Shown here one piece after another: positions 3,971 through 24,359 of a DNA stretch of 35,482 nucleotides. Where the stretch lies: assembly GCF_007556755.1 (NCBI RefSeq), contig NZ_VJOO01000026.1, forward strand, positions 1-35,482, given 5' to 3'. Under the pieces are notes generated by a model. That model was not told the DNA's origin. It did not search any database and saw only the letters and a program-made list of their open reading frames with translations. Made by a program: the position numbers and the translations under genes. The first letter of the stretch is position 1. Every line of letters begins with the position of its first letter. Source of the stretch: Tepidimonas fonticaldi (GTDB lineage Bacteria; Pseudomonadota; Gammaproteobacteria; Burkholderiales; Burkholderiaceae_C).

Positions 3971-4075
3971 TGCCCGAACGTGTGCTCGTTACACTTGGCG
4001 CGTCACGCCGCACGACCGGGGGTGCCCCGGCGGGTGGCGCCGCACCTTTTTTCGTCCCTTGCGCATCACGCCACC

Positions 4076-6519: not shown

Positions 6520-6587
6520 GCGTTGTGCGCGTGCTGGCGCGCCACTGCCGCCGGCACGCTCCCGCCTCCACCGCTTCCGGAGTCACC

Positions 6588-7619: not shown

Positions 7620-7626
7620 GCGCGCA

Positions 7627-8466
7627 ATGGCCCCGCACGCCACCCCGCAACCGGACGCCCCCTTCGTCGAATTCGACGGCGTGTGGCTGGCCTACAACCA
7701 GACTCTGCTGGACAAGGGGCAGTTTGCCGTCGAGGACATACACCTGCAGGTGCGCCGCGGCGAGTTCATCGCCATCGTCGGGCCATCGGGCTGCGGCAAG
7801 TCCACGTTCATGAAGCTGACCACGGGTCTCAAGCGCCCTTCGCGCGGCACCATCCGCGTCGACGGGCAGCCCGTGGACGGGCCGCTGAAGATCTCTGGCA
7901 TGGCGTTTCAGGCGCCCTCGCTGCTGCCCTGGCGCACCACGCTGGACAACGTGCTGCTGCCGCTGGAGATCGTGGAGCCGTTTCGCAGCCAGTTCAAGGA
8001 CCGGCGGCGCGAGTTCGAGGAGCGCGCAAAGCGATTGCTCGCCTCCGTGGGGCTGGCGGGCTACGAGCGCAAGTTCCCCTGGGAGCTGTCGGGCGGCATG
8101 CAGCAGCGCGCCAGCATCTGCCGCGCGCTCATCCACGAGCCCAAAATGCTGCTGCTCGACGAGCCGTTCGGGGCGCTGGACGCCTTCACCCGCGAGGAGC
8201 TGTGGTGCACCCTGCGCGATCTGTGGGAAGCGCAGCGCTTCAACGTCATCCTCGTCACGCACGACCTGCGCGAATCCGTCTTTCTGGCCGACACGGTGTA
8301 CTGCATGAGCAAAAGCCCCGGGCGCTTCGTCGTGCGGCGCGACATCCCAATCCCGCGCACGCGCGATCTGGAGGTCACCTACACACCCGAGTTCACCGAC
8401 ATCGTGCACGAGCTGCGCGGCCACATCGGTGCCATGCGCAAGACCGGCGCCCCCCTGCAGCAGTAA
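7627..8466 (+). CDS. ABC transporter ATP-binding protein, SsuB/TauB-like
   Basis: A 279-aa ATPase partner of the NMT1-type binding protein. Walker A GPSGCGKST near residue 55, Q-loop AFQAPSLLPW, signature LSGGMQQR, Walker B LLLLDEPFGALD and H-loop VTHDLRES are all intact. The C-terminal stretch (MSKSPGRFVVRRDIPIPR) is characteristic of the nitrate/sulfonate/taurine ATPase group. It begins 7 bases after the binding-protein stop, so it is co-transcribed and probably translationally coupled. The ribosome site is weak (GAG about 8 bases upstream), which fits coupling. It should energise the permease encoded 5 bases downstream. Confidence 0.9.
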   Translation: MAPHATPQPDAPFVEFDGVWLAYNQTLLDKGQFAVEDIHLQVRRGEFIAIVGPSGCGKSTFMKLTTGLKRPSRGTIRVDGQPVDGPLKISGMAFQAPSLLPWRTTLDNVLLPLEIVEPFRSQFKDRRREFEERAKRLLASVGLAGYERKFPWELSGGMQQRASICRALIHEPKMLLLDEPFGALDAFTREELWCTLRDLWEAQRFNVILVTHDLRESVFLADTVYCMSKSPGRFVVRRDIPIPRTRDLEVTYTPEFTDIVHELRGHIGAMRKTGAPLQQ

Positions 8467-8471
8467 CCGCC

Positions 8472-9239
8472 ATGTCCCGCAAAACCCTGGAACGGCTCTC
8501 GCCCCTGATATTGCTGGTCGTACTGATCGCCCTGTGGGAGGCGATCACGCGCGGCTTTGGCGTGTCGGAGTTCATTTTTCCGAGCCCCTCGCGCATCTGG
8601 GAGCAGACGGTCGAACACCACACGGTGATTCTGGGCCACGCCTGGCGCACGTTCTGGGTGACCATGGCGGGCTTTGGCATCGCCATCGTGGTCGGTGTGC
8701 TGCTCGGCTTTCTGATGGGCTCCTCGCGCCTGGCCTACGCGGCCCTCTATCCGCTGATGACGGCATTCAACGCCCTGCCGAAGGCGGCCTTCGTGCCGAT
8801 TCTGGTGGTGTGGTTTGGCATCGGCGTGGGGCCGGCGATCCTGACGGCTTTTTTGATCAGCTTCTTCCCCATCATGGTCAACATCGCCACCGGGCTGGCC
8901 ACGCTGGAGCCGGAGCTGGAGGACGTGCTGCGCGTGCTCGGCGCCCGGCGCTGGGACGTGCTGACCAAGGTGGGGCTGCCACGATCGCTGCCGTATTTTT
9001 TTGGTTCGCTCAAGGTCGCCATCACGCTGGCCTTCGTGGGCACCACGGTGTCCGAGATGACGGCGGCCAACGAGGGCATCGGCTATCTGCTGATCTCGGC
9101 CGGCTCGTCGATGCAGATGGGGCTGGCCTTCTCTGGGCTGCTGGTGGTGGGCATCATGGCCATGGCGATGTACGAGCTGTTCAGCCTGATCGAAAAAAAC
9201 ACCACCGGCTGGGCCCACCGCGGCAGTCAGGCCGCCTGA
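8472..9239 (+). CDS. ABC transporter permease, SsuC/TauC-like
   Basis: A 255-aa inner-membrane permease with about six hydrophobic helices, beginning LSPLILLVVLIALWEAI. The ATPase-coupling loop is present: GLATLEPELEDVLRVLGARRWDVLTKVGLPRSLPYF, which carries the family EAA motif (VLGARRWDVLTKVGLP). NALPKAAFVPILVVWFGIG is the typical substrate-path segment of nitrate/sulfonate/taurine permeases. It starts 5 bases after the ATPase stop and is followed 31 bases later by ureD, so the transporter and the urease accessory gene form one operon. Confidence 0.9.
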   Translation: MSRKTLERLSPLILLVVLIALWEAITRGFGVSEFIFPSPSRIWEQTVEHHTVILGHAWRTFWVTMAGFGIAIVVGVLLGFLMGSSRLAYAALYPLMTAFNALPKAAFVPILVVWFGIGVGPAILTAFLISFFPIMVNIATGLATLEPELEDVLRVLGARRWDVLTKVGLPRSLPYFFGSLKVAITLAFVGTTVSEMTAANEGIGYLLISAGSSMQMGLAFSGLLVVGIMAMAMYELFSLIEKNTTGWAHRGSQAA

Positions 9240-10101: not shown

Positions 10102-10119
10102 GGCGATCTTCAGATCGCC
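10102..10119. terminator. Perfect inverted repeat at the ureD/urtE convergent junction
   Basis: GGCGATCT, TC, AGATCGCC: an 8-base perfect inverted repeat that starts right after the ureD stop (10099-10101) and contains the urtE stop (10110-10112). As RNA it can form a 7-base stem with a TTCA loop from either strand. Position and symmetry suggest a bidirectional transcription or 3'-end barrier, though neither side has a clear T-run. Confidence 0.45.
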
Positions 10120-10814
10120 ACGAGTTGGCGGATACCGCGGGCTTGCATCTCGGCGCCTGGCCCGCTGGCCACCACCTCGCCGCGCTCCATCACCAGATAC
10201 TGGTCGGCCAGTTCTTCGGCGAAGTCGTAATATTGCTCAACCAACAATACGGCGATGGGTTGGCCATCGAGCCCCTCGCGGGCCAGCTTTTTGAGCACTC
10301 GGCCGATGTCTTTGATGATGTTGGGCTGAATGCCTTCGGTCGGCTCGTCGAGCACCAGAAGTCGGGGGCTTGACGCCAAGGCGCGGGCGATGGCCAATTG
10401 CTGCTGCTGCCCGCCGGAGAGGTCGCCCCCACGGCGATTCAACATTTGCTCGAGCACCGGAAACAACTCGAAGAGTTGTGGGGCCAACGGGGTTCCGGCC
10501 TTCTTCGTGGCCTGGCCCATGAGCAGGTTCTCGTGCACGGTCAGGCGGGCGAAGATTTCCCGCCCCTGCGGCACATAGCCAATACCGGCGCGGGCGCGCT
10601 CGTAAGGGCTGGCCTGGGTGATCGCCACGCCGTCCAGCAGGATCTGGCCGCTGCGCACCGGCACCAGGCCCATCAAGGCCTTGAGCAGCGTGGTTTTGCC
10701 CACGCCGTTGCGGCCCAGGACCACGGTAATCTCGCCCGCTCGGGCCTGCAGACTGACCCCACGCAGGATGTGCGAGCCGCCGTAGTACTGGTGGATCCGG
10801 TCGATTTGCAACAT
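10110..10814 (-). CDS. urtE: Urea ABC transporter ATP-binding subunit UrtE
   Basis: A 234-aa LivF-like ATPase of the high-affinity urea importer. Walker A GRNGVGKTT, signature LSGGQQQQLAIARAL, Walker B LLVLDEPTEG and the opening MLQIDRIHQYYGGSHILRG (QYYGGSHIL is diagnostic of UrtE) are present. The start at 10814 is preferred because GGGAAG stands 6 bases upstream and family proteins begin MLQ. An ATG at 10820 overlaps the urtD stop as ATGA and is the alternative. It is the last gene of the urt operon and ends in the palindrome shared with ureD. Confidence 0.95.
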   Translation of the reverse strand: MLQIDRIHQYYGGSHILRGVSLQARAGEITVVLGRNGVGKTTLLKALMGLVPVRSGQILLDGVAITQASPYERARAGIGYVPQGREIFARLTVHENLLMGQATKKAGTPLAPQLFELFPVLEQMLNRRGGDLSGGQQQQLAIARALASSPRLLVLDEPTEGIQPNIIKDIGRVLKKLAREGLDGQPIAVLLVEQYYDFAEELADQYLVMERGEVVASGPGAEMQARGIRQLVAI

Positions 10815-10816
10815 CC

Positions 10817-11692
10817 TCATCTTCCCAGATAAACCTCGATCACCCGCTCATCGGCCTGCACCTGGTCGAGCGTGCCTTCGGCCAGCACGGAGCCGTCACA
10901 CAGCACCGTCACCTTTTCACTGATGGCGCGAATGAAGTGCATGTCGTGCTCCACCACCATGAGGCTGTGCCGGCCCTTGAGGCGCAGGAACAGTTCGGCG
11001 GTGCGCTCGGTTTCCTCGTCGGTCATCCCCGCAACAGGCTCATCCAGCAACAGAAGCTTGGGCTCCTGCATCAGCAGCATGCCGATTTCCAGCCATTGCT
11101 TCTGGCCGTGGCTCAGATCGCCGGCACGGCGCGTCAATGCGTCGCTCAGGTGGATGGTGTGCAGCACCTCCGCCAAACGGTCTTTTTGCTCGCCTGTGAG
11201 AGAGAAGCGCAGGCTGGACCACACGCGTTTGTCGGCAGCCAGCGCCAACTCCAAGTTCTCGAAGACGCTCAGCTCCTCGAACACGGTGGGTTTTTGGAAC
11301 TTGCGACCGATACCCAGCGCGGCTATTTCGGGCTCGCTGTAGTGCAGCAAATCGATGGTCGAGCCAAAGAACACGGTGCCGCGGTCGGGCCGCGTCTTGC
11401 CAGTGATGATGTCCATCATCGTGGTCTTGCCCGCGCCGTTGGGGCCGATGATGCAGCGCAGCTCGCCTGGGGCGATGTCGAGGTTCAGTCCGTTGATGGC
11501 CTTGAAACCATCGAAACTGACGTGCACGTCCTCCAGGTACAAAATACGGCCGTGGGTCGTGTCCACTTCGCCGGTCTTTACGGGACGGGCGAATGGGGCA
11601 CTGCGGCCACCCGCCTCGGTCTGACCGGTGGCGGGTATACCGTGCGCGCGTGCCAGGCGCTGCGCGCCCGCTTCCATGAGGTCCGGGGTCAT
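10817..11692 (-). CDS. urtD: Urea ABC transporter ATP-binding subunit UrtD
   Basis: A 291-aa LivG-like ATPase. After a variable ~45-residue N-terminal tail come ILYLEDVHVSFDGFKAINGLNL, Walker A GPNGAGKTT, the Q-loop GRKFQKPTVFEELSVFENLELAL, the unusual signature LSHGQKQWLEIGMLL typical of UrtD, and Walker B LLLLDEPVAGMTDEET. The ATG at 11692 overlaps the urtC stop as ATGA, so translation is coupled. It pairs with UrtE to form the heteromeric ATPase of the urea importer. Confidence 0.95.
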   Translation of the reverse strand: MTPDLMEAGAQRLARAHGIPATGQTEAGGRSAPFARPVKTGEVDTTHGRILYLEDVHVSFDGFKAINGLNLDIAPGELRCIIGPNGAGKTTMMDIITGKTRPDRGTVFFGSTIDLLHYSEPEIAALGIGRKFQKPTVFEELSVFENLELALAADKRVWSSLRFSLTGEQKDRLAEVLHTIHLSDALTRRAGDLSHGQKQWLEIGMLLMQEPKLLLLDEPVAGMTDEETERTAELFLRLKGRHSLMVVEHDMHFIRAISEKVTVLCDGSVLAEGTLDQVQADERVIEVYLGR

Positions 11693-12834
11693 GCGACGCC
11701 TCCCGCCTGGCCACGCATGCGCTGCAGCACCGTCCGTGCCACCCCGACCAACCCCTGCGGCATGAACAGCGTCACCGCAATGAACAAGCCGCCCAGAAAA
11801 TACAGCCAGTACTCCGGGAAGTGCACCGTCAGCGCGCTTTTGGCACCGTTGACGACGAACGCGCCAATGATCGGTCCGATCAGGCTGGCCCGCCCGCCCA
11901 CAGCGGTCCAAATGGCGATCTCGATGCTGTTGGCAGGACTCATCTCGCTGGGGTTGATGATGCCCACCTGCGGGACGTACAACGCCCCAGCCACAGCGCA
12001 CATCACCGCCGAAATCACCCAGATGGTCAGTTTGTAGGGCAAGGGGTCGTAGCCGCAGAACATGACTCGGCTTTCGGCATCACGAATCGCTTGCAGCACC
12101 CGGCCGAATTTGGAGCGCACCAGCCAGCTTGCCCACAGATAAAAGACCAGCAGGGTCAGCCCGGTGATGACGAACAACACCATGCGCGTTTCGGGGGTAG
12201 CCAGGGGCACGCCCAGAATGCGCTTGAAATCGGTAAAGCCATTGTTGCCGCCCAAGCCGGTTTCGTTACGGAAGAACAGCAGCATGGCCGCAAAGGTCAG
12301 CGCCTGGGTGATGATGGAAAAGTACACCCCTTTGATGCGTGACCTGAAGGCAAAGTAACCAAACGCAAACGCCAGCCCCCCCGGCACCAGCACGATCAGC
12401 AACAGCGTGGCGGCGAAACTGTCGCTCAGCGCCCAGTGCCAGGGCAGCGCCTTCCAGTCCAAAAACACCATGAAGTCGGGCAGCTCGCTGCCATACACAC
12501 CGTCGGTGCCGATCTGTCGCATCAGGTACATGCCCATCACATAGCCGCCGAGCGCAAAGAACAGACCGTGCCCCAGGCTCAGAATGCCGGTGTAGCCCCA
12601 GATCAAATCCATGGCCAGGGCGCAAATGGCGTAACACATGATCTTGCCCAACAAACCGATCATGTAGTCGCTCAAATGCCAGGGGCTGTCAACCGGCACC
12701 CACAGATTGAGCACCGGGGCCAGCGCACAAACCCCTAGCAGCGCCGCAATGACCGCCCCCCAACCAGAGCGCGTCAGCAGCGGTCCCTTGGCGGGCCAGA
12801 GGACGATCGGTGTTGTGGTCGTCGTTGCAGTCAT
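11689..12834 (-). CDS. urtC: Urea ABC transporter permease UrtC
   Basis: A 381-aa LivM-like inner-membrane permease with roughly ten hydrophobic helices. Diagnostic stretches include MDLIWGYTGILSLGHGLFFALGGYVMGMYLMR, FFRNETGLGGNNGFTDFK and AIRDAESRVMFCGYDPLPYKLTIWVISA, which contains the ATPase-contacting loop. The start at 12834 follows a weak GGA site, 29 bases after the urtB stop. It works with UrtB to form the transmembrane urea channel. Confidence 0.95.
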   Translation of the reverse strand: MTATTTTTPIVLWPAKGPLLTRSGWGAVIAALLGVCALAPVLNLWVPVDSPWHLSDYMIGLLGKIMCYAICALAMDLIWGYTGILSLGHGLFFALGGYVMGMYLMRQIGTDGVYGSELPDFMVFLDWKALPWHWALSDSFAATLLLIVLVPGGLAFAFGYFAFRSRIKGVYFSIITQALTFAAMLLFFRNETGLGGNNGFTDFKRILGVPLATPETRMVLFVITGLTLLVFYLWASWLVRSKFGRVLQAIRDAESRVMFCGYDPLPYKLTIWVISAVMCAVAGALYVPQVGIINPSEMSPANSIEIAIWTAVGGRASLIGPIIGAFVVNGAKSALTVHFPEYWLYFLGGLFIAVTLFMPQGLVGVARTVLQRMRGQAGGVA

Positions 12835-12863
12835 GGGTGGATTCCGTGTATTCCAAGGACAAC

Positions 12864-14483
12864 TCAAGCCTGCCGCCCTTTGAGGGCGAAGATGCCCTGC
12901 GGCCGTTTCTGGATGAAGACGATGATGAACACCAGCACCGCGATCTTGGCCAATACCGCACCGGCCCAGCCTTCGATGAACTTGTTGAGCAACCCCAGCC
13001 CCAGCGCGGCATACACGGTGCCTGCGAGTTGCCCGACGCCGCCGAGCACCACCACCATGAAGCTGTCGATGATGTAGCTTTGTCCCAAATCCGGCCCCAC
13101 GTTGCCGACCTGACTCAGCGCCACGCCCGCCAGGCCCGCGATGCCAGACCCCAGCGCAAAGGCGTAGGTGTCGACACGCGCCGTGTTGACCCCCATGCAA
13201 GCCGCGATCGGCCGGTTTTGCGTCACGCCACGCACGAACAGGCCCAGCCGCGTTCGACCGATGAGCAGCGCTACGGCCACCAACACCGCCAACGCGAAGC
13301 CGATGATCACAATCCGGTTCCAGGGCAGTGTGAGATCCCCCATCACCACCACACCTCCGCTCATCCAGCCGGGGCTTTCCACCGCCACGTTTTGAGCGCC
13401 AAACACACTGCGCACCCCTTGCATGAGAATGAGACTGAGCCCCCAGGTCGCCAGCAACGTCTCCAGCGGACGGCCGTAGAGCCATCGAATGACGCCCCGC
13501 TCCATCACCGCGCCCACCAGCGCCGCAGCCAAAAACGCCACAGGCAGGGCCGCGAGCAAATACCACTCGAATGCGCCCGGCAAGTACTGCCTGAAGAGCC
13601 CCTGCACCACGTAAGTGGCGTAGGCGCCAATCATGATCAGCTCGCCGTGGGCCATGTTGATCACACCCATCAACCCATAGGTGATGGCCAGACCCAGGGC
13701 CGCCAGCAGCAGGATGGAGCCCAGGCTCACCCCCGTGAACAACTGCCCAACGACCTGGGCGCGAATCAAAGCCCGGTCCACCTGAGCCAGCGCTTGCGCC
13801 AGCGCGGCCTTGACGGCGGGGTCGGACTCCTGTTCCTGGCGCTGCGCCAGCCTGGCCCGCACGCTGTCCTGCCCCACATGCGCCAGGGTCTGAACAGCCG
13901 TCACGCGTTGCGCGGCATCGCCGCCCTCCAACCACAAAGCGGCGCGGGCCTCCTCCACGGCACGCCGGGCCCGACCATCCAGACGCGAAACATTTTGGGA
14001 AGCCAACGCGTTCTCGATCCAGGGCATGACCGACGCGTCCGGCTGGGCGATCAGGCTGTCCCGCAAGCGCAGCGCTGCCTCGCGCTGCCGCCTTGCGTCA
14101 TCACCCAGCAGATCCAAGCCCGCCAGCGCGCGCTCCAACGCCCCCCGCAGGCGGTTGTTGACCATCGCGCTGGTCGCTCCATCGGCCGAGGCGGGGGCGC
14201 CCGTCACCGCGTCGATGGCGGTCTCCCCCTCCACGATGAGCACCTGCTCGCCGCGCACCATCACCGCCTCGCGGGCCATGGCCCGAATCAGGGCCTCGGC
14301 CTGCGGGTCGCCGGACGTGGCCAGCCGGCCCATGACTGCGATGCGATCGGCGGTCTCGCCCTCGGCCAGGGTCAGTGCCTCCTGCGGCGTGAGCGCTCGC
14401 GCGGCGCCCGCCCATACCCACATCAGGCCCAGCCACAACACCCACAACCGGCGGCCCGCCGCCCACACGCATCGCGAACGCAT
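12864..14483 (-). CDS. urtB: Urea ABC transporter permease UrtB
   Basis: A 539-aa LivH-like permease. As in other UrtB proteins, a signal-like helix (WVLWLGLMWVWAGAARA) is followed by a ~200-residue helical extracytoplasmic region with ALW/LAH repeats resembling HEAT-like units. The membrane domain runs from about residue 245 (VGQLFTGVSLGSILLLAALGLAITYGLMGVINMAHGELIMIGAYATY) to the end. ATCMG-type loop VTQNRPIAACMGVNT contacts the ATPases. AGGAG lies 7 bases before the ATG at 14483. The gene follows urtA by 14 bases. Confidence 0.95.
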   Translation of the reverse strand: MRSRCVWAAGRRLWVLWLGLMWVWAGAARALTPQEALTLAEGETADRIAVMGRLATSGDPQAEALIRAMAREAVMVRGEQVLIVEGETAIDAVTGAPASADGATSAMVNNRLRGALERALAGLDLLGDDARRQREAALRLRDSLIAQPDASVMPWIENALASQNVSRLDGRARRAVEEARAALWLEGGDAAQRVTAVQTLAHVGQDSVRARLAQRQEQESDPAVKAALAQALAQVDRALIRAQVVGQLFTGVSLGSILLLAALGLAITYGLMGVINMAHGELIMIGAYATYVVQGLFRQYLPGAFEWYLLAALPVAFLAAALVGAVMERGVIRWLYGRPLETLLATWGLSLILMQGVRSVFGAQNVAVESPGWMSGGVVVMGDLTLPWNRIVIIGFALAVLVAVALLIGRTRLGLFVRGVTQNRPIAACMGVNTARVDTYAFALGSGIAGLAGVALSQVGNVGPDLGQSYIIDSFMVVVLGGVGQLAGTVYAALGLGLLNKFIEGWAGAVLAKIAVLVFIIVFIQKRPQGIFALKGRQA

Positions 14484-14497
14484 CGTGACACTCCTGC

Positions 14498-15778
14498 TCA
14501 GGCGGACTTTTGCGGGGTGTCGGGCTTCTTGTCGTTGCCTTCGATGAAGGGACTCCAGGGCTGCGCACGCACCGGGCCTTTGGTCTTCCAGACGACGTTG
14601 AACTGGCCGTCGGCGCGCACCTCGCCAATGAACACCGGCTTGTGCAGGTGGTGATTCTTCTCGTCCATCTTGGCCTCGAATCCGTTCGGTGCCTTGAAGG
14701 TCTGACCGCGCATCGCCACACGCACCTTGTCCACATCGGTGGACTTCGCCTTTTCCACGGCCTGCTTCCACATGTGAATGCCGATGTAGGTGGCCTCCAT
14801 GGGGTCATTGGTCAGCGGCCGATCCTTGTGGCCAGGGATGTTCTTGGCCTTGGCGTAAGCGGCCCACTTCTTGGTGAACTCGTCGTTGACCGGGTTTTTC
14901 AGGCTCATGAAGTAGTTCCACGCCGCCAGATGACCGACCAGCGGGCGGGTATCTACGCCGCGCAGTTCTTCCTCGCCCACGCTAAAGGCTACCACTGGCA
15001 CGTCAGTGGCCTTGAGGCCTTGGTTGCCCAGCTCCCGGTAGAAGGGCACGTTGGAGTCGCCGTTGATGGTGGAGACCACGGCCGTTTTCTTGCCCTGCGA
15101 CGAGAACTGCTTGATGCGGGCGATGATGGACTGGTAGTCGCTGTGGCCGAAGGGCGTGTATTCCTCCATGATGTCGCTGTCGGGGATGCCCTTGGACTTC
15201 AGGAACGCGCGCAAGATCTTGTTGGTCGTGCGCGGGTAGACGTAGTCGGTGCCGAGCAGCACGAAACGCTTGGCCGAACCCCCGTCGGCGCTCATCAGGT
15301 ATTCCACCGCCGGAATCGCCTGCTGGTTGGGAGCCGCACCGGTGTAGAACACGTTGGGGCTCATTTCTTCGCCCTCGTACTGCACCGGATAGAACAGCAG
15401 ACCGTTGAGCTCTTCGAACACCGGCAGCACCGATTTGCGGCTGACCGACGTCCAGCAGCCGAAAACCGCGGCCACTTTGTCTTTGGTCAGCAACTGGCGG
15501 GCGCGCTCGGCAAACAGCGGCCAGTTGGAGGCGGGGTCCACCACCACGGCTTCGAGCTTGCGCCCCAGCACGCCGCCCTTGGCGTTGATTTCTTCGACCG
15601 CCATCAGCACCGTGTCCTTCAGCACGGTTTCGGAAATCGCCATGGTGCCCGACAGGCTGTGCAACACCCCCACTTTGATGGGCGTGTTGGCGCGGGCGGG
15701 CCAAGCGGCCAGACTGCCCAGGGTGCCGACGGCCGCTGCGGCCGAAAGGGCTTTGAGGGTGGAACGACGTTTCATCAT
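14498..15778 (-). CDS. urtA: Urea ABC transporter substrate-binding protein UrtA
   Basis: A 426-aa periplasmic type-I binding protein for urea or short amides. The signal region MMKRRSTLKALSAAAAVGTLGSLAAWPARA precedes IKVGVLHSLSGTMAISE. Further UrtA landmarks are VFGCWTSVSRKSVLPVFEE, LLFYPVQYEGEE, YFMSLKNPVN and DPMEATYIGIHMWKQAVEKA. GGAG lies 7 bases upstream of the ATG at 15778 (ATG at 15775 is an alternative), and a promoter with an inverted repeat lies further upstream. It is the first gene of urtABCDE and stands 153 bases after the response regulator gene on the same strand. Confidence 0.96.
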   Translation of the reverse strand: MMKRRSTLKALSAAAAVGTLGSLAAWPARANTPIKVGVLHSLSGTMAISETVLKDTVLMAVEEINAKGGVLGRKLEAVVVDPASNWPLFAERARQLLTKDKVAAVFGCWTSVSRKSVLPVFEELNGLLFYPVQYEGEEMSPNVFYTGAAPNQQAIPAVEYLMSADGGSAKRFVLLGTDYVYPRTTNKILRAFLKSKGIPDSDIMEEYTPFGHSDYQSIIARIKQFSSQGKKTAVVSTINGDSNVPFYRELGNQGLKATDVPVVAFSVGEEELRGVDTRPLVGHLAAWNYFMSLKNPVNDEFTKKWAAYAKAKNIPGHKDRPLTNDPMEATYIGIHMWKQAVEKAKSTDVDKVRVAMRGQTFKAPNGFEAKMDEKNHHLHKPVFIGEVRADGQFNVVWKTKGPVRAQPWSPFIEGNDKKPDTPQKSA

Positions 15779-15871: not shown

Positions 15872-15900
15872 ATGCTAGGGTTTGCCCTGATGACTGTCTG
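15872..15900 (-). promoter_or_regulatory. Candidate sigma-70 promoter of urtA
   Basis: On the minus strand CAGACA (15895-15900) and TAGCAT (15872-15877) are separated by 17 bases. The weak match, four of six bases in each hexamer, is what an activator-dependent promoter would show. Start would be near 15865, about 87 bases before urtA. No sigma-54 motif was found here. Confidence 0.4.
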
Positions 15901-15916
15901 TACGCCGGGTGGCGTA
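15901..15916. promoter_or_regulatory. Perfect inverted repeat upstream of urtA, candidate LuxR-type regulator site
   Basis: TACGCC and GGCGTA flank a 4-base spacer, directly abutting the -35-like CAGACA of urtA. Its centre is about 43 bases upstream of the predicted start, the usual place for activation by FixJ/NarL-type regulators such as the one encoded just upstream. The minus-strand 7-mer CATACGC within it recurs in the kinase/ureA intergenic region. It could instead form a hairpin at the end of the regulator mRNA, but no T-run follows. Confidence 0.45.
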
Positions 15917-15931
15917 TGAGCCTCCGGCATG

Positions 15932-16948
15932 TCAGCCTGCCGCACGCTCGCTCAGGGAGGGCACACGCTGCAAGGCCATGGCTGCGGCAGCGGTTCGGGT
16001 TTCCACGCCGAGCTTGGCATGGATGCGCTCCAGGTGCTTTTTCACCGTCGCCGGACTCGCGCCCAGGATGTCGCCAATGTCACGATTGGTCTTGCCTTTG
16101 GCCACCCAGTACAGCACTTCGGCCTCGCGCGCCGTCAGGCCAAAGGTTTGCATCAGCCCCTGTAGGGCGCTGGCGTCCGAGGTTTCCTGCATCACGATCA
16201 GCCACTCGCCGCCCTCCCCGTTGGGGGCGGCGTCGGCCGGATCGCCCACGGCACGGTGCAAGCGAAACGTCAACCGCCGCGGGCCGTGGCTCAAGGTCAG
16301 GCGGGGCGGCTCCACGGGGGCAGTAGCGCCCTGCCGGACATCGGGCACGTGGCGACGCAACCATTGCAGCACGGGCTCGGGCGTCTCGGGCGCCTGGGTG
16401 CCGCAATAGCGCCACAAAAGCTCCCGGGCCAGCGGGGTCTGCCACATCAAGCGGCCATCGCGTTCCCGCACCGTCATGGTGGCATAGCCAAAGGCATCCA
16501 GAGCGTTGCGCGCCTGCTCTTGCTCCAACTCCCCACGACGCACCTGCCGCGCCGTGCGCAAATGCACCCCCATGCGGGCGATCACCTCTTGGGGTTTGAC
16601 CGGCTTGGTCACGTAGTCCACCCCGCCCGCGTCCAGCGCCTGCAGCAGGTGCTCGGTCTCGGTCAACCCGGTCATGAAAATAATGGGAATGTGCGCCGTC
16701 TGCGGATCGGCCTTCAGGCGTCTGGCCACCTCGAAGCCATCCATGCCGGGCATGATGGCATCGAGCAGCACCACATCGGGCTGGGCCTGCCGCGCACGGG
16801 CGAGGGCGGCTTCGCCATCCAGGGCCACCAGAACCGTGTGCCCGGTTTCGTCCAGCGTGTCGTGCAAAACGGCCAAGTTTTCCGGCGCATCGTCCACGAT
16901 CAGGACCACCGGGGGAACGTCTTCAATCTCGTGAGGGTTCCAACGCAC
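15932..16948 (-). CDS. LuxR-type response regulator of the urea sensor pair
   Basis: A 338-aa response regulator. Residues 13-125 form a receiver domain with acidic pair Asp19/Asp20, phospho-acceptor Asp63 (LLDAIMPGMDG), Thr93 and Lys115. Residues ~150-255 look like a PAS-type module (NALDAFGYATMTVRERDGRLMW). Residues 268-325 are a LuxR/GerE helix-turn-helix (GLTAREAEVLYWVAKGKTNRDIG, then ATVKKHLERIHAKLGV). The start is a GTG at 16948: a full AGGAGG lies 6 bases before it, inside the end of the kinase gene. The frame is open 24 codons further upstream but without a ribosome site. The two genes overlap by 26 bases, so synthesis of sensor and regulator is coupled. The next gene downstream is urtA. 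Confidence 0.88.
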   Translation of the reverse strand: MRWNPHEIEDVPPVVLIVDDAPENLAVLHDTLDETGHTVLVALDGEAALARARQAQPDVVLLDAIMPGMDGFEVARRLKADPQTAHIPIIFMTGLTETEHLLQALDAGGVDYVTKPVKPQEVIARMGVHLRTARQVRRGELEQEQARNALDAFGYATMTVRERDGRLMWQTPLARELLWRYCGTQAPETPEPVLQWLRRHVPDVRQGATAPVEPPRLTLSHGPRRLTFRLHRAVGDPADAAPNGEGGEWLIVMQETSDASALQGLMQTFGLTAREAEVLYWVAKGKTNRDIGDILGASPATVKKHLERIHAKLGVETRTAAAAMALQRVPSLSERAAG

Positions 16949-19900
16949 CAAGCGCCTCCTGCAAGACCTGTTCAATCTGTTCAAACCGGAATTCACGTGC
17001 CCACACACGCAAGCGATCACCTGCGGGTCCGGGACACAGCTCGTCGAGGCAACGCACGAGGCCCCGGTAGTGGCCCAGCCGGGCAGATGCGATCAAGCCG
17101 CGCAAATCGGCCGCCGACAGCGTGCGCAAGCCCTCCCAAGACGTTTCGGGCGCCGGCGAATGCATGCGCTGGACCGGCAGGGGTGCCGATGGGGACGGCA
17201 ACCACGTCAGATCGAGTCGCCGGGCGAGCCAGCGCAGCAGGTCGTCACGCCGAACGGGCTTGACGAAAAAGTCGTGCGCGTGCAAGCCGACCGGGTTGTC
17301 CAGCCCCTTGTCAAAGGCATTGGCCGACACGACGGCCCATGCCGGGGCCGGCCAGCCCTGTCCTTGGGCCAGGGCCCGGATGCGCTCGAGCGCCTGCCAG
17401 CCGTCCATGCCGGGCATGGCCAGGTCCATGAACACCGCATCGGGGCGCAGCCCGGCCTCCAGCAGGGCCAGGGCTTGTTCGCCACAGGCAGCCAAGTGCA
17501 CCTCGAAGCCCAATGGGGCCAGCCAGCGTTGCAGCAATTGCCGGTCGTCTTCCTCGTTGTCCACGACCAGCAGGCAACGCCGCGGCCCGGCGTAGCCGTC
17601 CACCTGCAGCGGGCGGGCATCGGCCATCGCGAGCGCCTCGCCGTGCCATTCCGGCAGAAACAGACGCAGCCGGAATACACTGCCCCACCCCGGTGTGCTG
17701 TCAACGGTCATTTCGCCCCCCATGAGGTCGGCCAGCATCCGGGCGATGGTCAATCCCAGCCCAGCGCCATGGGCGCCCGGCTGCGCCGCGGCCAATCCCC
17801 GGGCAAACGGCTCGAACACCCGCTCCCGCTCGGCCGCAGTCATGCCAGGCCCGGTGTCGCAGACCTCGAACACCGCCATCTCGCGCACATACCGCACCCG
17901 CAAGGTCACGCCACCACGCACCGTGAACTTGACCGCATTGCCCAACAGGTTGATCAGGATCTGACGCAGCCGCCGGTCGTCGGCGCGCACGGCCTGCGGC
18001 CAGCGGGTGGGCGGCTCGAAAGCAAACGACAGTCCTTTGGCCTTGGCCTGCAGCTCGAACATGCCGGCCACATCCTGCAACAGAGCCTTGAGGTCCAGCG
18101 GCCTGACGTCGAGGGTCAGGCGGCCCGCCTCGATACGGGCAATATCGAGCGTGCCTTCGATCAGCGACAGCAGGTGCTCGCCACTGCGCAGGATGACCTG
18201 TACCGCATGGGCGCGATGGGGCGGCAGCGCAGCATCCTGCTGCAGGAGCTGGGCATAGCCCAGAATGCTGTTGAGCGGTGTGCGCAGCTCGTGGCTGATG
18301 GTGCTGACATAGCGCGTCTTGGCCTGGCTGGCCTGGTCGGCCTGTTCACGGGCCCGCTCGGCGGCCTGCTTGGCCTGCTGCAGGGCGGCATCGGTGCGGC
18401 GGTGGGATTCGATTTCCTCCATCAGCAGCCGGGTCTGCCGGTTGGATTCCTCCTGCGCCACCTCGCGGCTCTTGTGCGCCAGCACCAGCCACCAGGCGAC
18501 CACGGCCGCCACCATCAGCAAAGCCGCATACACCTTGATGAATCCGGCCTGCAAGGCTGCCAGTGCTTCCTCCCCCGCCGGCAGGGCATCGACCGACAGC
18601 AGCCGGTGCCACTCGTGGCGGTACAACACGGCCAGCACCGCCGCCAACATCGGAGCGATCACCAGCATCAGCAGCAGAAAATGCCCCAAACCGGCATCGA
18701 CCCGAGGCCACCAGCGTGGCGGTAACAAACGGTGCAGCACCTGCTCCCACTGACGCGAGAGGCGTGCATGGGGTTTGCACGCGTCGGCACAGCGGGCGTC
18801 GAGCGTGCAGCACAGCGAGCAAATGTCGCCCTGATAAGCTGGACAGTGCGCCATGTCCGGCGCTTCGTAAGCCGACTCGCAGACCACACAATGCTTGAGC
18901 GGTGCCAGGGCCACGTAGCGGCCATCGAGCCCGACGTCGGAGTGATCGCGATTGGCGGGCTCGGGCTGGCGGGCCAGGTAGTAGCGGCCGCGGGTGGCCC
19001 AGGCAATCAAGGGCGCGGTCAAAAATGCCGTCACCATGGCCACCACCGCCGAGAACGCCTGTGCCATCGGCCCCATCAGGCCCAAATGCGCGGCCATGCC
19101 CAGCGCCGACGCCAGCGTCATGGCCCCCACCCCCACGGGGTTGACGTCGTACAGATACGCCCGCTTGAACTCGATGCCACGCGGCGACCAGCCCAAAGGC
19201 TTGTTGATGACGAGATCGGCCACCACCGCCATGATCCACGCGATGGCGATGTTGGCATACAGGCCCAGCACATCGCCCAGGGCCTCGAACACGTTCATCT
19301 CCATGAGCATGAAGGCGATGGCCGTGTTGAACACCACCCACACCACCCGGCCTGGGTGATGGTGGGTCAGCCGGGAGAAAAAATTGCTCCACGCCAAGGA
19401 GCCTGCGTAAGCATTGGTGACGTTGATCTTGAGCTGCGACACCACCACGAACAGCGCCGTGGCCGCCACGGCCCAGCCGTGGGGCAACAGGTATTCGTAA
19501 GCGGCCAGGTACATCTGGTTCGGGTCCACCGCACGTTCGGCGCCCCCACCGTAGCTGAGCACCAGATGGGCCAGCAACACACCGCCCAGCATTTTCAGCA
19601 CGCCAATCACCACCCAGCCGGGGCCGCCGGCCACCACGCCCAGCCACCAGCGCCCCCGGGTGCGCTGGGTGGGCGGAGGCATGAAGCGCAAATAGTCGGC
19701 CTGCTCCCCCATCTGGGTGATCAGTGCCACCCCCACCGTCAGCGCCGCCCCAAACAAGTGCCACTGAAATGCACCGCCTTCGCCATCCGCCCCAGCATAG
19801 TGCGCCACCGCGGAAAACGCCTCCGGGTCCAGCCACGCCACGGCGACGAACGGCACGACCATCATCACCAGCCACAGGGGCTGCGTCCAGACCTGAAAGC

Positions 19901-20477
19901 GGCTGATGACCGACACCCCGTGCGTGACCAGCGGAATCACCACCAGGGCGCAGATCAGGTAGCCCCAAGCGGGCGGTATACCCAGCGCCAACTCCAGCGC
20001 ATAGGCCATCACCGCGGCTTCGAGCGCGAAAAAGATGAAGGTAAACGACGCATAGATGAGCGAGGTGATGGTGGACCCGATGTAACCGAACCCGGCACCG
20101 CGCGTCAGCAGGTCCATGTCCACGCCATAGCGGGCGGCGTAGACACTGATGGGCAATCCCGCCAAGAAAATGATCAACCCGGTGACCACGATGGCCCAAA
20201 AGGCGTTCAGAAACCCATACTGCACCAGCAACGTGGCCCCCACCGCCTCCAGGATGAGAAACGAGGCCACGCCAAACGCCGTGTTGGCCACCCGCCACTC
20301 CGACCATTTGCGAAACCGCTGCGGGGTGAAGCGCAGGGCGTAGTCTTCCAGCGTCTCGCTGGCCACCCAGCTGTTGTAATCCCTCCGCACCTTGACGATG
20401 CGCTGGACAGGAACGGCATGTTCGACGGCTTCGGGCTTCACGCCTGCTCCGGGTGCAGCTTTCGTGCCATGCGCCAT
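16923..20477 (-). CDS. NCS1 permease-histidine kinase-receiver fusion (putative urea/ureide sensor)
   Basis: An 1184-aa hybrid sensor kinase. Residues ~60-500 form a complete NCS1-type nucleobase/hydantoin permease with about 12 membrane helices ([54 protein letters not shown]). Residues 530-567 hold eight cysteines in the pattern C-x2-C-x11-C-x7-C-x2-CC-x5-C-x3-C. Two more helices (about 599-618 and 646-666) and a coiled coil (670-720) lead to a HisKA domain with His729 in HELRTPLN, an ATPase with N847, DTGPGM (874-879) and GAGLGL (904-909), and a receiver with Asp973, Asp1017 and Lys1073. The last ~70 residues are helical and unassigned. The overlapping regulator and urtA downstream indicate control of urea uptake. 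Transport-coupled kinases are known for the SLC5 family (CbrA); an NCS1 version is unusual. Ligand is inferred. Confidence 0.88.
16955..16960 (-). promoter_or_regulatory. Shine-Dalgarno AGGAGG that sets the response regulator start
   Basis: AGGAGG on the minus strand lies inside the 3' end of the kinase gene, 6 bases before a GTG at 16948. It decides the regulator start and gives a 26-base overlap with the kinase gene, a layout for stoichiometric coupled translation. Confidence 0.75.
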
Positions 20478-20490
20478 CCAGCGTATGGCG
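20472..20490. promoter_or_regulatory. Inverted repeat overlapping the sensor kinase start codon
   Basis: CGCCAT and ATGGCG flank a 7-base spacer in the divergent kinase/ureA region and cover the kinase ATG (20475-20477). The minus-strand sequence CATACGC occurs here and in the repeat upstream of urtA, so the site could be an autoregulatory target of the LuxR-type regulator, also placed to act on ureA. Part of the symmetry may be chance. Confidence 0.3.
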
Positions 20491-20552: not shown

Positions 20553-20855
20553 ATGGAACTCTCCCCCCGCGACAAAGACAAGCTGCTCATCTTCACCGCC
20601 GCGCTGCTGGCCGAGCGCCGGCGCGCGCGCGGGCTCAAGCTCAACTACCCCGAGGCGGCGGCCCTGATCAGCGCCTATGTGATGGAAGGGGCCCGCGACG
20701 GCAAGACGGTGGCCGAGCTCATGAGCGAAGGCCGCACCGTGCTCAGCCGCACCGACGTCATGGAGGGCGTGCCGGAGATGCTCGCCGACATCCAGGTCGA
20801 GGCGACCTTCCCCGACGGCACCAAGCTCGTCACCGTGCACCAGCCCATCGTCTGA
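20553..20855 (+). CDS. ureA: Urease gamma subunit UreA
   Basis: A 100-aa structural subunit of the (alpha-beta-gamma)3 nickel urease that hydrolyses urea to ammonia and carbamate. [23 protein letters not shown] at the N-terminus, [14 protein letters not shown] and the C-terminal [13 protein letters not shown] are classic, and the length is exactly that of the family. The upstream ribosome site is poor (AAGAG at 20541-20545). First gene of the ureA-orf-ureBCEFG operon, divergent from the sensor kinase. Confidence 0.97.
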
Positions 20856-20875: not shown

Positions 20876-21055
20876 ATGCCCTTCACCGCCAAGCTCCCCC
20901 GCCTGCTCGCCCCGGCCCTGACCTGGCTGACCCACGCGGCCCATGCACACGAGGGCCACGGCCTGCCCGGCGCCCACTGGCACGCCACCGACGTGCTGGG
21001 CTTCGTGGGTCTGGCCGCGGCCATCGGTGCGGTCATCTGGTTCACCCGCAAATGA
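20876..21055 (+). CDS. Small His-rich single-span membrane peptide in the urease operon
   Basis: A 59-aa product between ureA and ureB, starting 20 bases after the ureA stop with AGGA 8-11 bases before the ATG. The N-terminal part is a signal-like hydrophobic segment ([18 protein letters not shown]), then comes [15 protein letters not shown] with five closely spaced histidines, and then a membrane helix ([20 protein letters not shown]) ending in basic residues. It resembles the metal-binding N-terminus of HupE/UreJ nickel permeases but is far too short (they have ~190 residues) to be one. Position and histidines suggest a nickel- or urea-linked membrane role. I do not recognise a characterised family. 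Confidence 0.65.
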
Positions 21056-21065
21056 GGGAGCGCCC

Positions 21066-21371
21066 ATGATCCCCGGCGAGCTTTTCATCGACGCGGGCGA
21101 GCACCCGCTCAACCCCGGGCGGCGCACCGTCACCGTGGTGGTGGTCAACACAGCCGACCGCCCCATCCAGGTCGGCTCGCACTACCACTTTGCCGAAACC
21201 AATGCCGCGCTGTCGTTCGACCGCGCCGCCGCGCGCGGCATGCGTCTGAACATCGCCAGCGGGACCGCCGTGCGCTTCGAGCCCGGCCAGCAGCGCACCG
21301 TCGAACTGGTGGACTACGCTGGCGCCCGCGCCGTGTACGGCTTTCGCGGCCTGGTGCAAGGAGCGTTGTGA
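21066..21371 (+). CDS. ureB: Urease beta subunit UreB
   Basis: A 101-aa structural urease subunit. [53 protein letters not shown] and the C-terminal [25 protein letters not shown] are hallmark segments. GGGAG lies shortly upstream and the gene begins 11 bases after the small His-rich gene. The stop TGA overlaps the ureC ATG as TGATG, so synthesis of beta and alpha subunits is coupled. Confidence 0.97.
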
Positions 21372-23116
21372 TGGCCAGCATTTCCCGCCGCGCCTATGCC
21401 GAGATGTTCGGCCCCACCGTGGGCGACCGGGTGCGCCTGGGTGACACCGCCCTGGTCATCGAAGTCGAGCGCGACCACACCCTGCAAGCCGGCGGCTATG
21501 GGGAGGAGGTCAAGTTTGGTGGCGGCAAGACCATCCGCGACGGCATGGGCCAGAGCCAGCGCAGCCGCGCCCAGGGCGCGGTCGATCTGGTCATCACCAA
21601 CGCCCTCATCGTGGACCACTGGGGCATCGTCAAGGCCGACATCGGCGTCAAGGACAGCCGCATCGTCGGCATCGGCAAGGCCGGCAACCCCGACGTGCAG
21701 CCGGGCGTGGACATCGTCATCGGCCCGGGCACCGAAATCCTGGCCGGCGAAGGCCTGATCGTCACCGCCGGCGGCTACGACAGCCACATCCACTTCATCT
21801 GCCCGCAGCAGATCGAAGAGGCGCTCATGTCCGGCATCACCACCATGACGGGCGGCGGCACGGGCCCCGCCACCGGCACCAACGCCACCACCTGCACGCC
21901 AGGGCCGTGGCACATCGAGCGCATGCTGCAGGCGGCGGATGCCTTCCCCATGAACCTGGGTTTTTTGGGCAAGGGCAACGCCAGCCAGCCGCAGGGGCTG
22001 ATGGAGCAGGTGGAGGCCGGCGCCATCGGAATGAAGCTGCACGAGGACTGGGGCACCACCCCGGCCGCCATCGACGCCTGCCTGGACGTGGCGGAGCAGA
22101 CCGACACCCAGATCTGCATCCACACCGACACGCTCAACGAAAGCGGCTTCGTGGAGGACTCCATCGCCGCCTTCAAGGGCCGCACCATCCACACCTTCCA
22201 CTGCGAAGGCGCGGGCGGCGGCCACGCGCCCGACATCCTCAAGGTGGTGGGCGAAGCCAATGTGCTGCCCTCCTCCACCAACCCCACGCGGCCCTACACC
22301 GTCAACACGCTGGAAGAGCACGTGGACATGCTGATGGTGTGCCACCACCTGGACGCCTCCATCGCCGAGGACCTGGCCTTTGCCGAAAGCCGCATCCGCA
22401 AGGAAACCATCGCCGCCGAGGACATCCTGCACGACCTGGGCGCCATCAGCATCATGAGCAGCGACAGCCAGGCCATGGGCCGGGTGGGCGAGGTCATCTG
22501 CCGCACCTGGCAGACCGCGCACAAGATGAAGGTGCAGCGCGGCTGGCTGCCCCCCACGCCGGGCCGCGACGAGCCGGTGGAGCAAAACGACCGCAACGAC
22601 AACTTCCGCGTCAAGCGCTACATCGCCAAATACACCCTCAACCCCGCCATTGCGCACGGCGTCAGCCACATCGTCGGCTCGGTGGAGGTGGGCAAATGGG
22701 CCGACCTGGTGCTATGGAAGCCGGCTTTCTTCGGCATCAAGCCCGCGCTCGTCCTCAAGGGCGGCATGATCGCCGCCGCCGCCATGGGCGACCCCAACGC
22801 CTCCATCCCCACGCCGCAGCCGGTGCACTACCGGCCGATGTTTGGCAGCTTCGGCGCAGCCCTGCACAAAACGTCGCTGACCTTCGTGTCCCAGGCCGGG
22901 CTGGCCGCGGGCATCGGCCAGCGCTACGGCCTGCAGAAACCGCTGGTGGCCGTGCAGGGCTGCCGCACCATCGGCAAGCGCGACATGGTGCTCAACGACT
23001 ACGCGCCGCGCATGGACATCGACCCGCAGACCTACGCCGTGCGCGCCGACGGGGTGCTGCTGACCTGCGAGCCCGCCGCCGAGCTGCCGCTGGCCCAGCG
23101 CTATTGCCTGTTCTGA
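21371..23116 (+). CDS. ureC: Urease alpha subunit UreC (catalytic)
   Basis: A 581-aa catalytic subunit with the binickel centre. All ligands are present, shifted by five from Klebsiella numbering: His139 and His141 ([11 protein letters not shown]), carbamylated Lys222 (MKLHEDWG), His224, His251, His277 and Asp365. The flap has Cys324 and His325 (MVCHHLD). The start is the ATG at 21371, with AAGGAG 7 bases upstream; a GTG at 21368 would be only 4 bases away. No residue is missing, so the enzyme should be active. Confidence 0.98.
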
Positions 23117-23124
23117 ACGCCGCC

Positions 23125-23652
23125 ATGTTGACCGCCGCCCGCCTCATCCCCCGTGGCCAGGGCCTGGCCCCCGCCCTGCTCGACCGCAGCGCCTGGATCA
23201 GCCTGGACTGGGATCAGCGCCAGAAAAGCCGCTTCGACTGCGACGACTCGCACGGGCGCCGGGTGGGGGTGTTTCTGGCACCCGGCACGGTGCTGCGCGG
23301 CGGGGATGTGCTGCTCACCGAGGACGGGGCGCTGCTGCGCGTGCAGGCGGCCGCCCAGCCCGTCCTGCGCGTGACCCCATGCCCCGAACACGGCACCCCG
23401 CTGGACCTGCTGCGCGCGGCCTACCACCTGGGCAACCGGCATGTGCCGCTGGAGGTGCAAGCCGATCACCTGAAGCTCGAACCCGACCCGGTGCTGGCCG
23501 ACATGCTGCGGCAGATGCACCTGATCGTGACCAAAACACGGGAGCCGTTCGAACCCGAAGCCGGGGCCTATGCCGCTCACTCCCATGGGCATCGCCACGG
23601 GCATTCCCACGAACACACCCACGGCCACCCGCACAACCTGCCCCCGCCGTGA
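23125..23652 (+). CDS. ureE: Urease nickel metallochaperone UreE
   Basis: A 175-aa nickel donor for urease maturation. An N-terminal peptide-binding domain (residues 1-~75, DQRQKSRFDCDDSHGRRVGVFL) is followed by the metal-binding domain with YHLGNRHVPLEV (the conserved interface histidine) and ADMLRQMHLIV. The tail has nine histidines alternating with Gly, Ser and other residues (HSHGHRHGHSHEHTHGHPH), a Klebsiella-type nickel store. It begins 8 bases after the ureC stop, and its TGA overlaps the GTG of ureF. Confidence 0.97.
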   Translation: MLTAARLIPRGQGLAPALLDRSAWISLDWDQRQKSRFDCDDSHGRRVGVFLAPGTVLRGGDVLLTEDGALLRVQAAAQPVLRVTPCPEHGTPLDLLRAAYHLGNRHVPLEVQADHLKLEPDPVLADMLRQMHLIVTKTREPFEPEAGAYAAHSHGHRHGHSHEHTHGHPHNLPPP

Positions 23653-24359
23653 GCACCCCGCCCGTGGCCGCCTCATCGACCCTTTTGCCCCTGCTCTGGC
23701 TGGCCTCGCCCGCCCTGCCGGTGGGCGCTTTCTCGTATTCCGAGGGGCTGGAAGCGGCGGTGGAGGCCGGCTGGGTGCATGACGAGGCCAGTGCCGGCGA
23801 CTGGATCGAGGATCAATTGCACCTGAGCCTCGCCCGCGCCGATCTGCCCGCCACGGCCCGCGCCTGGTCCGCCGCGCGCGCGGGGGATGCGGCCGCCCTG
23901 CGGGCACTGGACGACTGGGTGCGGCACAGCCGCGAGACCGCCGAGCTGCGGCTGCAAACCGAACAGATCGGCCACGGGCTGTGGGCCTGGTTGGACAGCC
24001 TGGATGCGCGCCCGGCCGGCTGGTGGCCCCACCCCACGCCCCCGACCCAGCCGGTCGCGCTGGGGATGGCCCTGGCCGTGCAGGCCCATCCCGACACGCC
24101 GCTTGCGGATGCGCTGGCGGCCATCGCCTTCGGGTGGGCGGAAAACGCCGTGCAGGCGGCCATCAAAGCCGTTCCCCTGGGCCAGGCCGCCGGCCAGCGC
24201 ATCCTGCGCCGGCTCGTCCAGCAGATCCCAGCCGCCGTCGACGACGCGTGCCGCCGCAGCCACGACGCCGACCCGCTGGCCCTGCAGGCCTATACCCCCG
24301 GGCTGGGCGTGCTGTCCAGCCGCCACGAAACCCAGTACTCGCGCCTCTTCCGCTCATGA
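23649..24359 (+). CDS. ureF: Urease accessory protein UreF
   Basis: A 236-aa all-helical protein that binds UreD and gates UreG during nickel insertion. [30 protein letters not shown] near the N-terminus and [14 protein letters not shown] at the C-terminus are family signatures. The start is a GTG at 23649 that overlaps the ureE stop as GTGA, fitting the expected N-terminus; no ATG in frame is as well placed. Its stop overlaps the ureG ATG as ATGA. Confidence 0.96.

Follow-up and report, generated by a model that had tools for sequence, protein, structure and literature searches.

We analysed a 35,482-nucleotide stretch of Tepidimonas fonticaldi DNA (contig NZ_VJOO01000026.1, positions 1 to 35,482; the window, below, is this whole stretch), which encodes a hybrid sensor histidine kinase with a permease-like N-terminal half, an adjacent response regulator and genes for urea uptake (urt) and urease (ure). 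An earlier note, made from the sequence alone, had read the protein as an NCS1-type permease fused to a kinase that would sense or transport urea or a ureide, inducing urea uptake and maybe urease. The kinase, its regulator and two operator-like dyads are arranged as follows.

16923..20477, minus strand: hybrid sensor kinase, 1184 amino acids, made up of an NCS1-fold domain, a cysteine module, two more helices, HisKA, HATPase and a receiver
18963..20345, minus strand: NCS1-fold permease domain, about residues 45-505 (intermediate sequence, profile-profile comparison, fold search)
18777..18890, minus strand: cysteine module, residues 530-567, C-x2-C-x11-C-x7-C-x2-CC-x5-C-x3-C
18123..18323, minus strand: HisKA, residues 719-785 (Pfam, E 4.2e-18)
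17655..17981, minus strand: HATPase_c, residues 833-941 (Pfam, E 6.7e-25)
17232..17570, minus strand: receiver, residues 970-1082 (Pfam, E 2.1e-16)
15932..16948, minus strand: NarL/FixJ (LuxR-type) response regulator (Response_reg and GerE domains, Pfam)
16955..16960, minus strand: AGGAGG ribosome-binding site of the regulator, six bases 5' of its GTG
15900..15917, minus strand: operator-like dyad ATACGCCACCCGGCGTAC, ~130 bp upstream of the urtA ATG
20469..20486, plus strand: weaker dyad ATGCGCCATCCAGCGTAT, spanning the kinase ATG, ~76 bp upstream of ureA

The 1184-amino-acid frame with intact HisKA, HATPase and receiver domains described by the earlier note is present, and all three domains score above the Pfam cut-offs. 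The regulator starts at a GTG (16948-16946) and overlaps the kinase end (16923) by 26 bases; this overlap and the AGGAGG, both part of that description, were found, and an alternative, longer regulator frame starts at 17020. The next gene on the same strand is urtA, as had been claimed, with a TIGR03407 match above its cut-off.

The N-terminal half of the kinase has the NCS1 fold, and its NCS1 kinship is shown indirectly yet firm. With a threshold as loose as E 1, Pfam matched PF02133 (NCS1) neither to the window protein nor to any of the 39 sequences in alignment A1, and no NCS1 entry appeared in a sequence-profile search of the PDB with the N-terminal half; by themselves, these two plain searches would have misled. 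The SSF domain was likewise unmatched by Pfam at E 1 in the window kinase. The kinship is shown by an intermediate sequence, by profile-profile comparison and by fold search, and the NCS1-type permease of the earlier note stands on these three and not on the plain searches. In a search of 398 genomes, standalone frames of 434-585 amino acids weakly matched the fused domain; the strongest such relative, L177 (E 7e-35), itself passes PF02133 (36.4 bits, cut-off 23.5, E 3.6e-9). Profile-profile comparison (hhalign) of the fused domain gave E 3.6e-50 against seven standalone proteins and E 7e-10, with a probability of 96.5%, against three canonical NCS1 proteins. An AlphaFold model built with 72 of the 81 near-relative sequences as input had a predicted local distance difference test (pLDDT) value of 71.6 and a predicted template modelling score (pTM) of 0.71. 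Its five best PDB matches by E-value were CodB and Mhp1 (TM-score by target length 0.67-0.74), NCS1 entries ranked above SSS entries, and a few other LeuT-superfamily entries reached a TM-score of 0.68 at worse E-values. Mhp1 and CodB thus share the fold of the window domain, in both the structure search and the profile comparison, but carry no kinase.

Residues E77, E153, Q255, E258, Q259, D261, R264, K350, N352 and N355 are invariant in 39/39 members, and such invariant intramembrane polar residues argue for a kept binding site. In CodB, Na+ is bound at the Na2 site by two Thr of transmembrane helix 8 (TM8) (PMC9379551), while the kinase family has an invariant Lys nearby, in an unsettled register. 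The register of TM8 (the Na2 region, K350) differs between alignments, nor is it clear that the Na2 ligands are conserved; CbrA has a Lys at its Na2 site, and the same assignment was considered here but dropped because K350 falls in different registers depending on the alignment. Among the standalone NCS1-like relatives L177, L116, L178-L180 and L184, three of the six have no PF02133 match at E 0.1, and the residue at the position of the kinases' invariant Lys350 is Arg.

The cysteine module noted earlier is real: it sits between permease and kinase, and its eight Cys have identical spacing in 143 of 144 fused frames, the sole exception (L176, on a short contig) still matching the module profile. 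Run against the 398 genomes, with at most 16 candidates scored per genome so that further ones could be missed, this profile matched 57 frames, 894-1365 amino acids long, in 52 genomes. Since this equals the number of fused genes (56 fetched plus that of the window) in the same genomes, the module appears to be private to the fused-kinase family. In the models it consists of short strands and a helix. The Foldseek matches were mostly RING, PHD and other zinc-finger entries (best E 0.54, none significant), the best Pfam match was Prok-RING_1 (E 0.0059, in 3/28 members), and the best hit of a PDB profile search (0.0012) fell on short repeated C2H2 pieces; no fold was assigned to the module. Two more helices, hydrophobic by sequence, lie between the module and HisKA. 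A C-terminal histidine phosphotransfer (HPt) relay, suggested by LGHYRGL near the end, was rejected, as many relatives have Tyr in place of the His and some have yet other residues. A short form of the kinase (L118, L168, L174) measures 838-868 amino acids from the match start, versus about 1100 or more elsewhere, a length at which the receiver would be missing; it adjoins fmdA and amiS, and the gene that follows it in L118 carries a response-regulator annotation.

Downstream of the regulator and on its strand lie the urt genes, of which the UrtA and UrtB products exceed their NCBIfam cut-offs; the urease operon runs on the plus strand, with ureA (20553) 75 bp from the kinase start.

14498..15778, minus strand: urtA, urea ABC transporter binding protein (TIGR03407, 595 bits, cut-off 492.75)
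12864..14483, minus strand: urtB, start picked by eye (TIGR03409 on a longer frame, 424 bits, cut-off 250.3)
11689..13935, minus strand: second urt permease, urtC by position; longest open frame, true start further in (BPD_transp_2)
10817..12001, minus strand: ATPase, urtD by position; longest open frame, true start further in (ABC_tran, BCA_ABC_TP_C)
10110..10820, minus strand: second ATPase, urtE by position (ABC_tran)
20553..20855, plus strand: ureA, divergent from the kinase (in L119 the tblastn match lies where urease subunit gamma is annotated)
20943..21371, plus strand: ureB, longest open frame holding the gene (Urease_beta)
21371..23116, plus strand: ureC (Urease_alpha, Amidohydro_1)
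23116..23652, plus strand: ureE (stretch takes in bases before the start)
23379..24359, plus strand: ureF, longest open frame holding the gene

Beyond urtE, the window encodes a malic enzyme/phosphotransacetylase fusion, an NMT1/THI5-like protein and an ABC permease (3980-6370 and 6525-9239, plus strand).

The fused gene was found 57 times in 52 of the 398 sampled genomes of the phylum (Proteobacteria). Its neighbourhoods were scored by tblastn, with the window genes and annotated plasmid loci as queries, in 56 sampled loci, in 80 near relatives (the best 80 of at least 577 from a scan of species genomes, including L002, which matches the query at 100% identity and is probably from the same organism) and in seven plasmid loci hand-picked out of 549 matching records. 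Conserved linkage to urea genes had been named by the earlier note as a test of its reading, and the outcome speaks for that reading: urt, ure or the formamidase gene fmdA was found beside the fusion in 54/56, 77/80 and 7/7 loci, respectively. The sampled loci comprise 35 with urt and fmdA, six with ure and urt, six with ure, five with urt, two with fmdA and two with none; the near relatives comprise 47 with ure, 28 with ure and urt, two with urt and three with none. In all five loci that lack a marker, the contig ends 1.2 kb or less upstream of the middle of the permease match. A regulator match accompanies the fusion in 54/56 sampled, 76/80 near-relative and 6/7 plasmid loci, and a urt importer is present in 46 of the 56 sampled loci, with an AmiS-type channel in a further two.

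In a mainly formamidase-linked tree of 69 fused domains and two outgroups, the urease-linked proteins fall into two groups apart from each other, both with good support (99/99 for 15 rows of the window's order, 100/100 for L173 with L175). Formamidase linkage is likely to be ancestral, with the caution that the outgroup branches are very long and the deepest forks weakly supported; some other joins also involve long branches. Urease-linked and formamidase-linked copies occur together in genomes G225, G246 and G379, and in loci L020 and L035 two fusion copies lie side by side. The permease domain matched 549 plasmid records, 342 of them from Klebsiella and 310 of the 549 typed as conjugative. 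On the Klebsiella oxytoca plasmid L115, the only Klebsiella neighbourhood read, the kinase, regulator, urtABCDE and the formamidase gene amiF lie between heat-shock genes (clpK, hsp20) and, ~10 kb on, a gene for cyanuric acid amidohydrolase.

An exact-dyad search upstream of the kinase in 62 loci returned variants of TACGTCA-NN-TGACGTA (7-2-7), the best of which occurred in 18/62 loci, compared with at most three in three shuffles; this layout we take to resemble that of NarL sites. Across the 144 loci (2.77 Mb), TACG-N8-CGTA occurs 89 times and spacers of 5-7 and 9-11 only 3-6 times, and a dyad matrix gave 138 matches versus 36 in shuffled sequence. The dyad lies upstream of urtA in 40/45 sampled, 30/30 near-relative and 5/5 plasmid loci and in the window (76/81 overall), and upstream of the kinase in 40/56, 22/80 and 4/7 and in the window. 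Upstream of the regulator gene it was found in none of 54, 76 and 6 loci, nor in the window. A matrix from which the urease-clade loci had been left out still placed the highest-scoring site of the whole locus upstream of urtA in 33 of 34 of these loci, L002, L020 and L035 among them. The window's own genome holds five exact TACG-N8-CGTA places, one of which is the urtA site; allowing one mismatch gave too many matches to define a regulon.

The dyad at urtA also follows the presence of the kinase. UrtA matches of E 1e-80 or better came from 163 of the 398 genomes, and the 30 best loci were examined. All seven kinase-bearing genomes of the window's family have the dyad at urtA (scores 14.8-24.2), including four in which urtA is about 40, 60, 100 and 245 kb from the kinase and the site was outside the matrix. 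It was absent at urtA from all 21 kinase-less genomes among these loci (scores 0.7 or less), two of which belong to the window's family and have UrtA 77 and 81% identical, and from 18 further hand-picked kinase-less genomes (scores 6.7 or less; 0/39 of those examined). Kinase-bearing genomes of other families contain four second urtA copies that have no dyad, as would be expected if those copies were outside the control of this regulator.

Regulator helix and dyad half-site, moreover, covary in our counts. Where the recognition helix has the sequence S-P-A-T-V-K-K-H or a close variant that keeps its Ala and Lys (57 loci), TACG is followed by C 57 times, by A twice, by G once and never by T; in 32 loci with Arg and Asn (S-P-R-T-V-N-K-H), it is followed by T 55 times and by C nine times. 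The remaining helix types give mixed or small counts: Met/Lys (4 C, 4 T), Arg/Asp (19 C, 5 T), Arg/Thr (7 C, 4 T, 1 A) and Arg/His (2 C). All four T of the Met/Lys type come from L020 and L035, at a site flanked by the second kinase and its urtA. In 25 of the 144 loci no helix was found, and related loci are not independent. Control of urt by the regulator, as predicted from conserved linkage and the conserved operator-like dyad, is well supported.

Since small amides are what urease, formamidase, Urt and AmiS/UreI have in common, the NCS1 domain would be expected to sense them, and as most sampled relatives outside the window's family adjoin formamidase, small amides are more likely for the family as a whole. 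We therefore favour, at a probability of roughly 0.7, a transporter-derived sensor kinase for a small amide that turns on urt through the regulator and the dyad. The amide, likely urea in the window's clade and presumably formamide in most relatives, would bind the NCS1-fold domain; movement would then be relayed by the cysteine module, which is probably a rigid coupler with bound metal, and by the two hydrophobic helices to HisKA/HATPase, and the phosphoryl group would reach the adjacent NarL/FixJ regulator. The regulator may bind the 7-2-7 dyad and turn on urt and, less certainly, the urease or formamidase genes and its own promoter. The observation of the earlier note is confirmed and its interpretation partly supported: urea is likely in the window's clade, the ligand broadens to small amides with nothing pointing to a ureide, and induction of urea uptake is better supported than that of urease.

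Several results weigh against this reading. The dyad is missing at 5/45 sampled urtA genes, and among near relatives only 22/80 kinases have it. It precedes just a minority of fmdA genes (8/37 sampled, 1/4 plasmid) and of ureA genes (3/12 sampled, 22/75 near-relative, 0/1 plasmid, plus the window), and its exact form is absent from both loci of the second urease lineage; control of urease is consequently less certain than that of urt. No residue cleanly separates urease- from formamidase-linked proteins in a strict test (6 vs 28), two positions pass a relaxed version, and just four positions change in parallel in both urease lineages. A warning also comes from CbrA, whose transporter domain is dispensable for signalling (PMC7096432).

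Two other explanations are unlikely, to a similar degree. The NCS1 domain could be a true transceptor that also imports the amide, transport itself being part of the signal, and the fold with its invariant polar residues would suit this, as would CbrA, which binds and transports histidine (PMC7096432). However, Ks-Amt5 binds ammonium without translocating it (PMC5764959), and the Na2 ligands are not clearly kept, the TM8 register varying between alignments. Considering that 46/56 loci already have a urt importer (and two more an AmiS-type channel), a receptor like Ks-Amt5 is likelier than a carrier. Alternatively, the permease may be a mere anchor, with a cytosolic signal (nitrogen status, or metal or redox state at the cysteine module) or one read by the two extra helices. 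Signalling by CbrA without its SLC5 domain, the constant cysteine spacing and the lack of clear ligand-specific residues favour such an anchor, which we nevertheless think improbable, since the intramembrane polar residues are invariant and small-amide genes, the only nitrogen genes searched for, recur next to the fusion. That the ligand is a nucleobase, hydantoin, allantoin or similar ring amide, as in classical NCS1 carriers, with the urea genes answering to an upstream nitrogen source, is very unlikely: NCS1 kinship, hydantoinase-type genes beside two standalone relatives and the cyanuric acid amidohydrolase gene ~10 kb from one plasmid copy would fit, but the annotation shows no genes for uricase, hydantoinase or allantoin use within ~12 kb of the seven plasmid fusions inspected (whose gene tables are incomplete; the non-plasmid loci were searched for urea, formamide and amidase genes only).

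Within the small-amide sensor reading, residue 401 (window 19275-19277), between TM9 and TM10 by sequence, is Glu in 34/39 formamidase-linked proteins and Gly in 88/89 and 2/2 urease-linked proteins of the two lineages. Because the basal urease-linked L127 keeps Glu401, we regard such parallel changes as a lead only. A fuller scenario, which we offer tentatively and consider rather doubtful, is that of an NCS1-fold receptor family that lost transport, whose members first sensed formamide and on two or more occasions turned to urea, with parallel Glu401-to-Gly changes near TM9-TM10, whose insulated paralogues coexist in one cell through matched helix and dyad changes, and in which movement of the permease is transmitted to the kinase by a RING-like cysteine module that binds two metals and is private to the family.

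Comparable systems are known. Ks-Amt5 of Kuenenia (PMC5764959) similarly uses a nutrient transporter fold as the membrane sensor of a histidine kinase in nitrogen acquisition, but its fold is Amt and its ligand ammonium, whereas the window family has the NCS1 fold, the cysteine module and an adjacent NarL/FixJ partner. CbrA (PMC7096432, PMC13022988), CrbS and RpuS (PMC9100948) also join a LeuT-superfamily permease to a histidine kinase, and Csal869, the putative partner of EupR (PMC2964678), is a hybrid permease kinase paired with a NarL/FixJ regulator, like the window system. These SLC5-type kinases have an SLC5/SSF permease, STAC or PAS domains and other ligands, in contrast to the NCS1 domain, eight-Cys module and two extra helices described here; where the CbrA type has STAC after the permease, the window family has the eight-Cys module, modelled with short strands (STAC was not among the models searched by name). 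Formamidase-linked urt operons of the same kind are described in Bradyrhizobium (PMC3098086), P. veronii (PMC13209695) and E. guguanensis (PMC13296017), the first two papers proposing that they move formamide or other amides and the third naming a hybrid kinase and a LuxR regulator among the neighbours of one. The available passages of these three papers are silent on the permease domain, the dyad and the kinase family, and we found no characterised NCS1-type or urt/formamidase-linked sensor kinase in the open-access literature.

The NCS1 fold would thereby join the known transporter-kinase fusions (SLC5, Amt), with concrete candidates for a urea sensor and a formamide sensor whose defined DNA site makes the regulon directly testable. 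The family may also provide a natural series of possible ligand switches in which to study the change from carrier to receptor. Since the fusion is widespread in Proteobacteria and on plasmids, it bears on how bacteria obtain nitrogen from urea and formamide.

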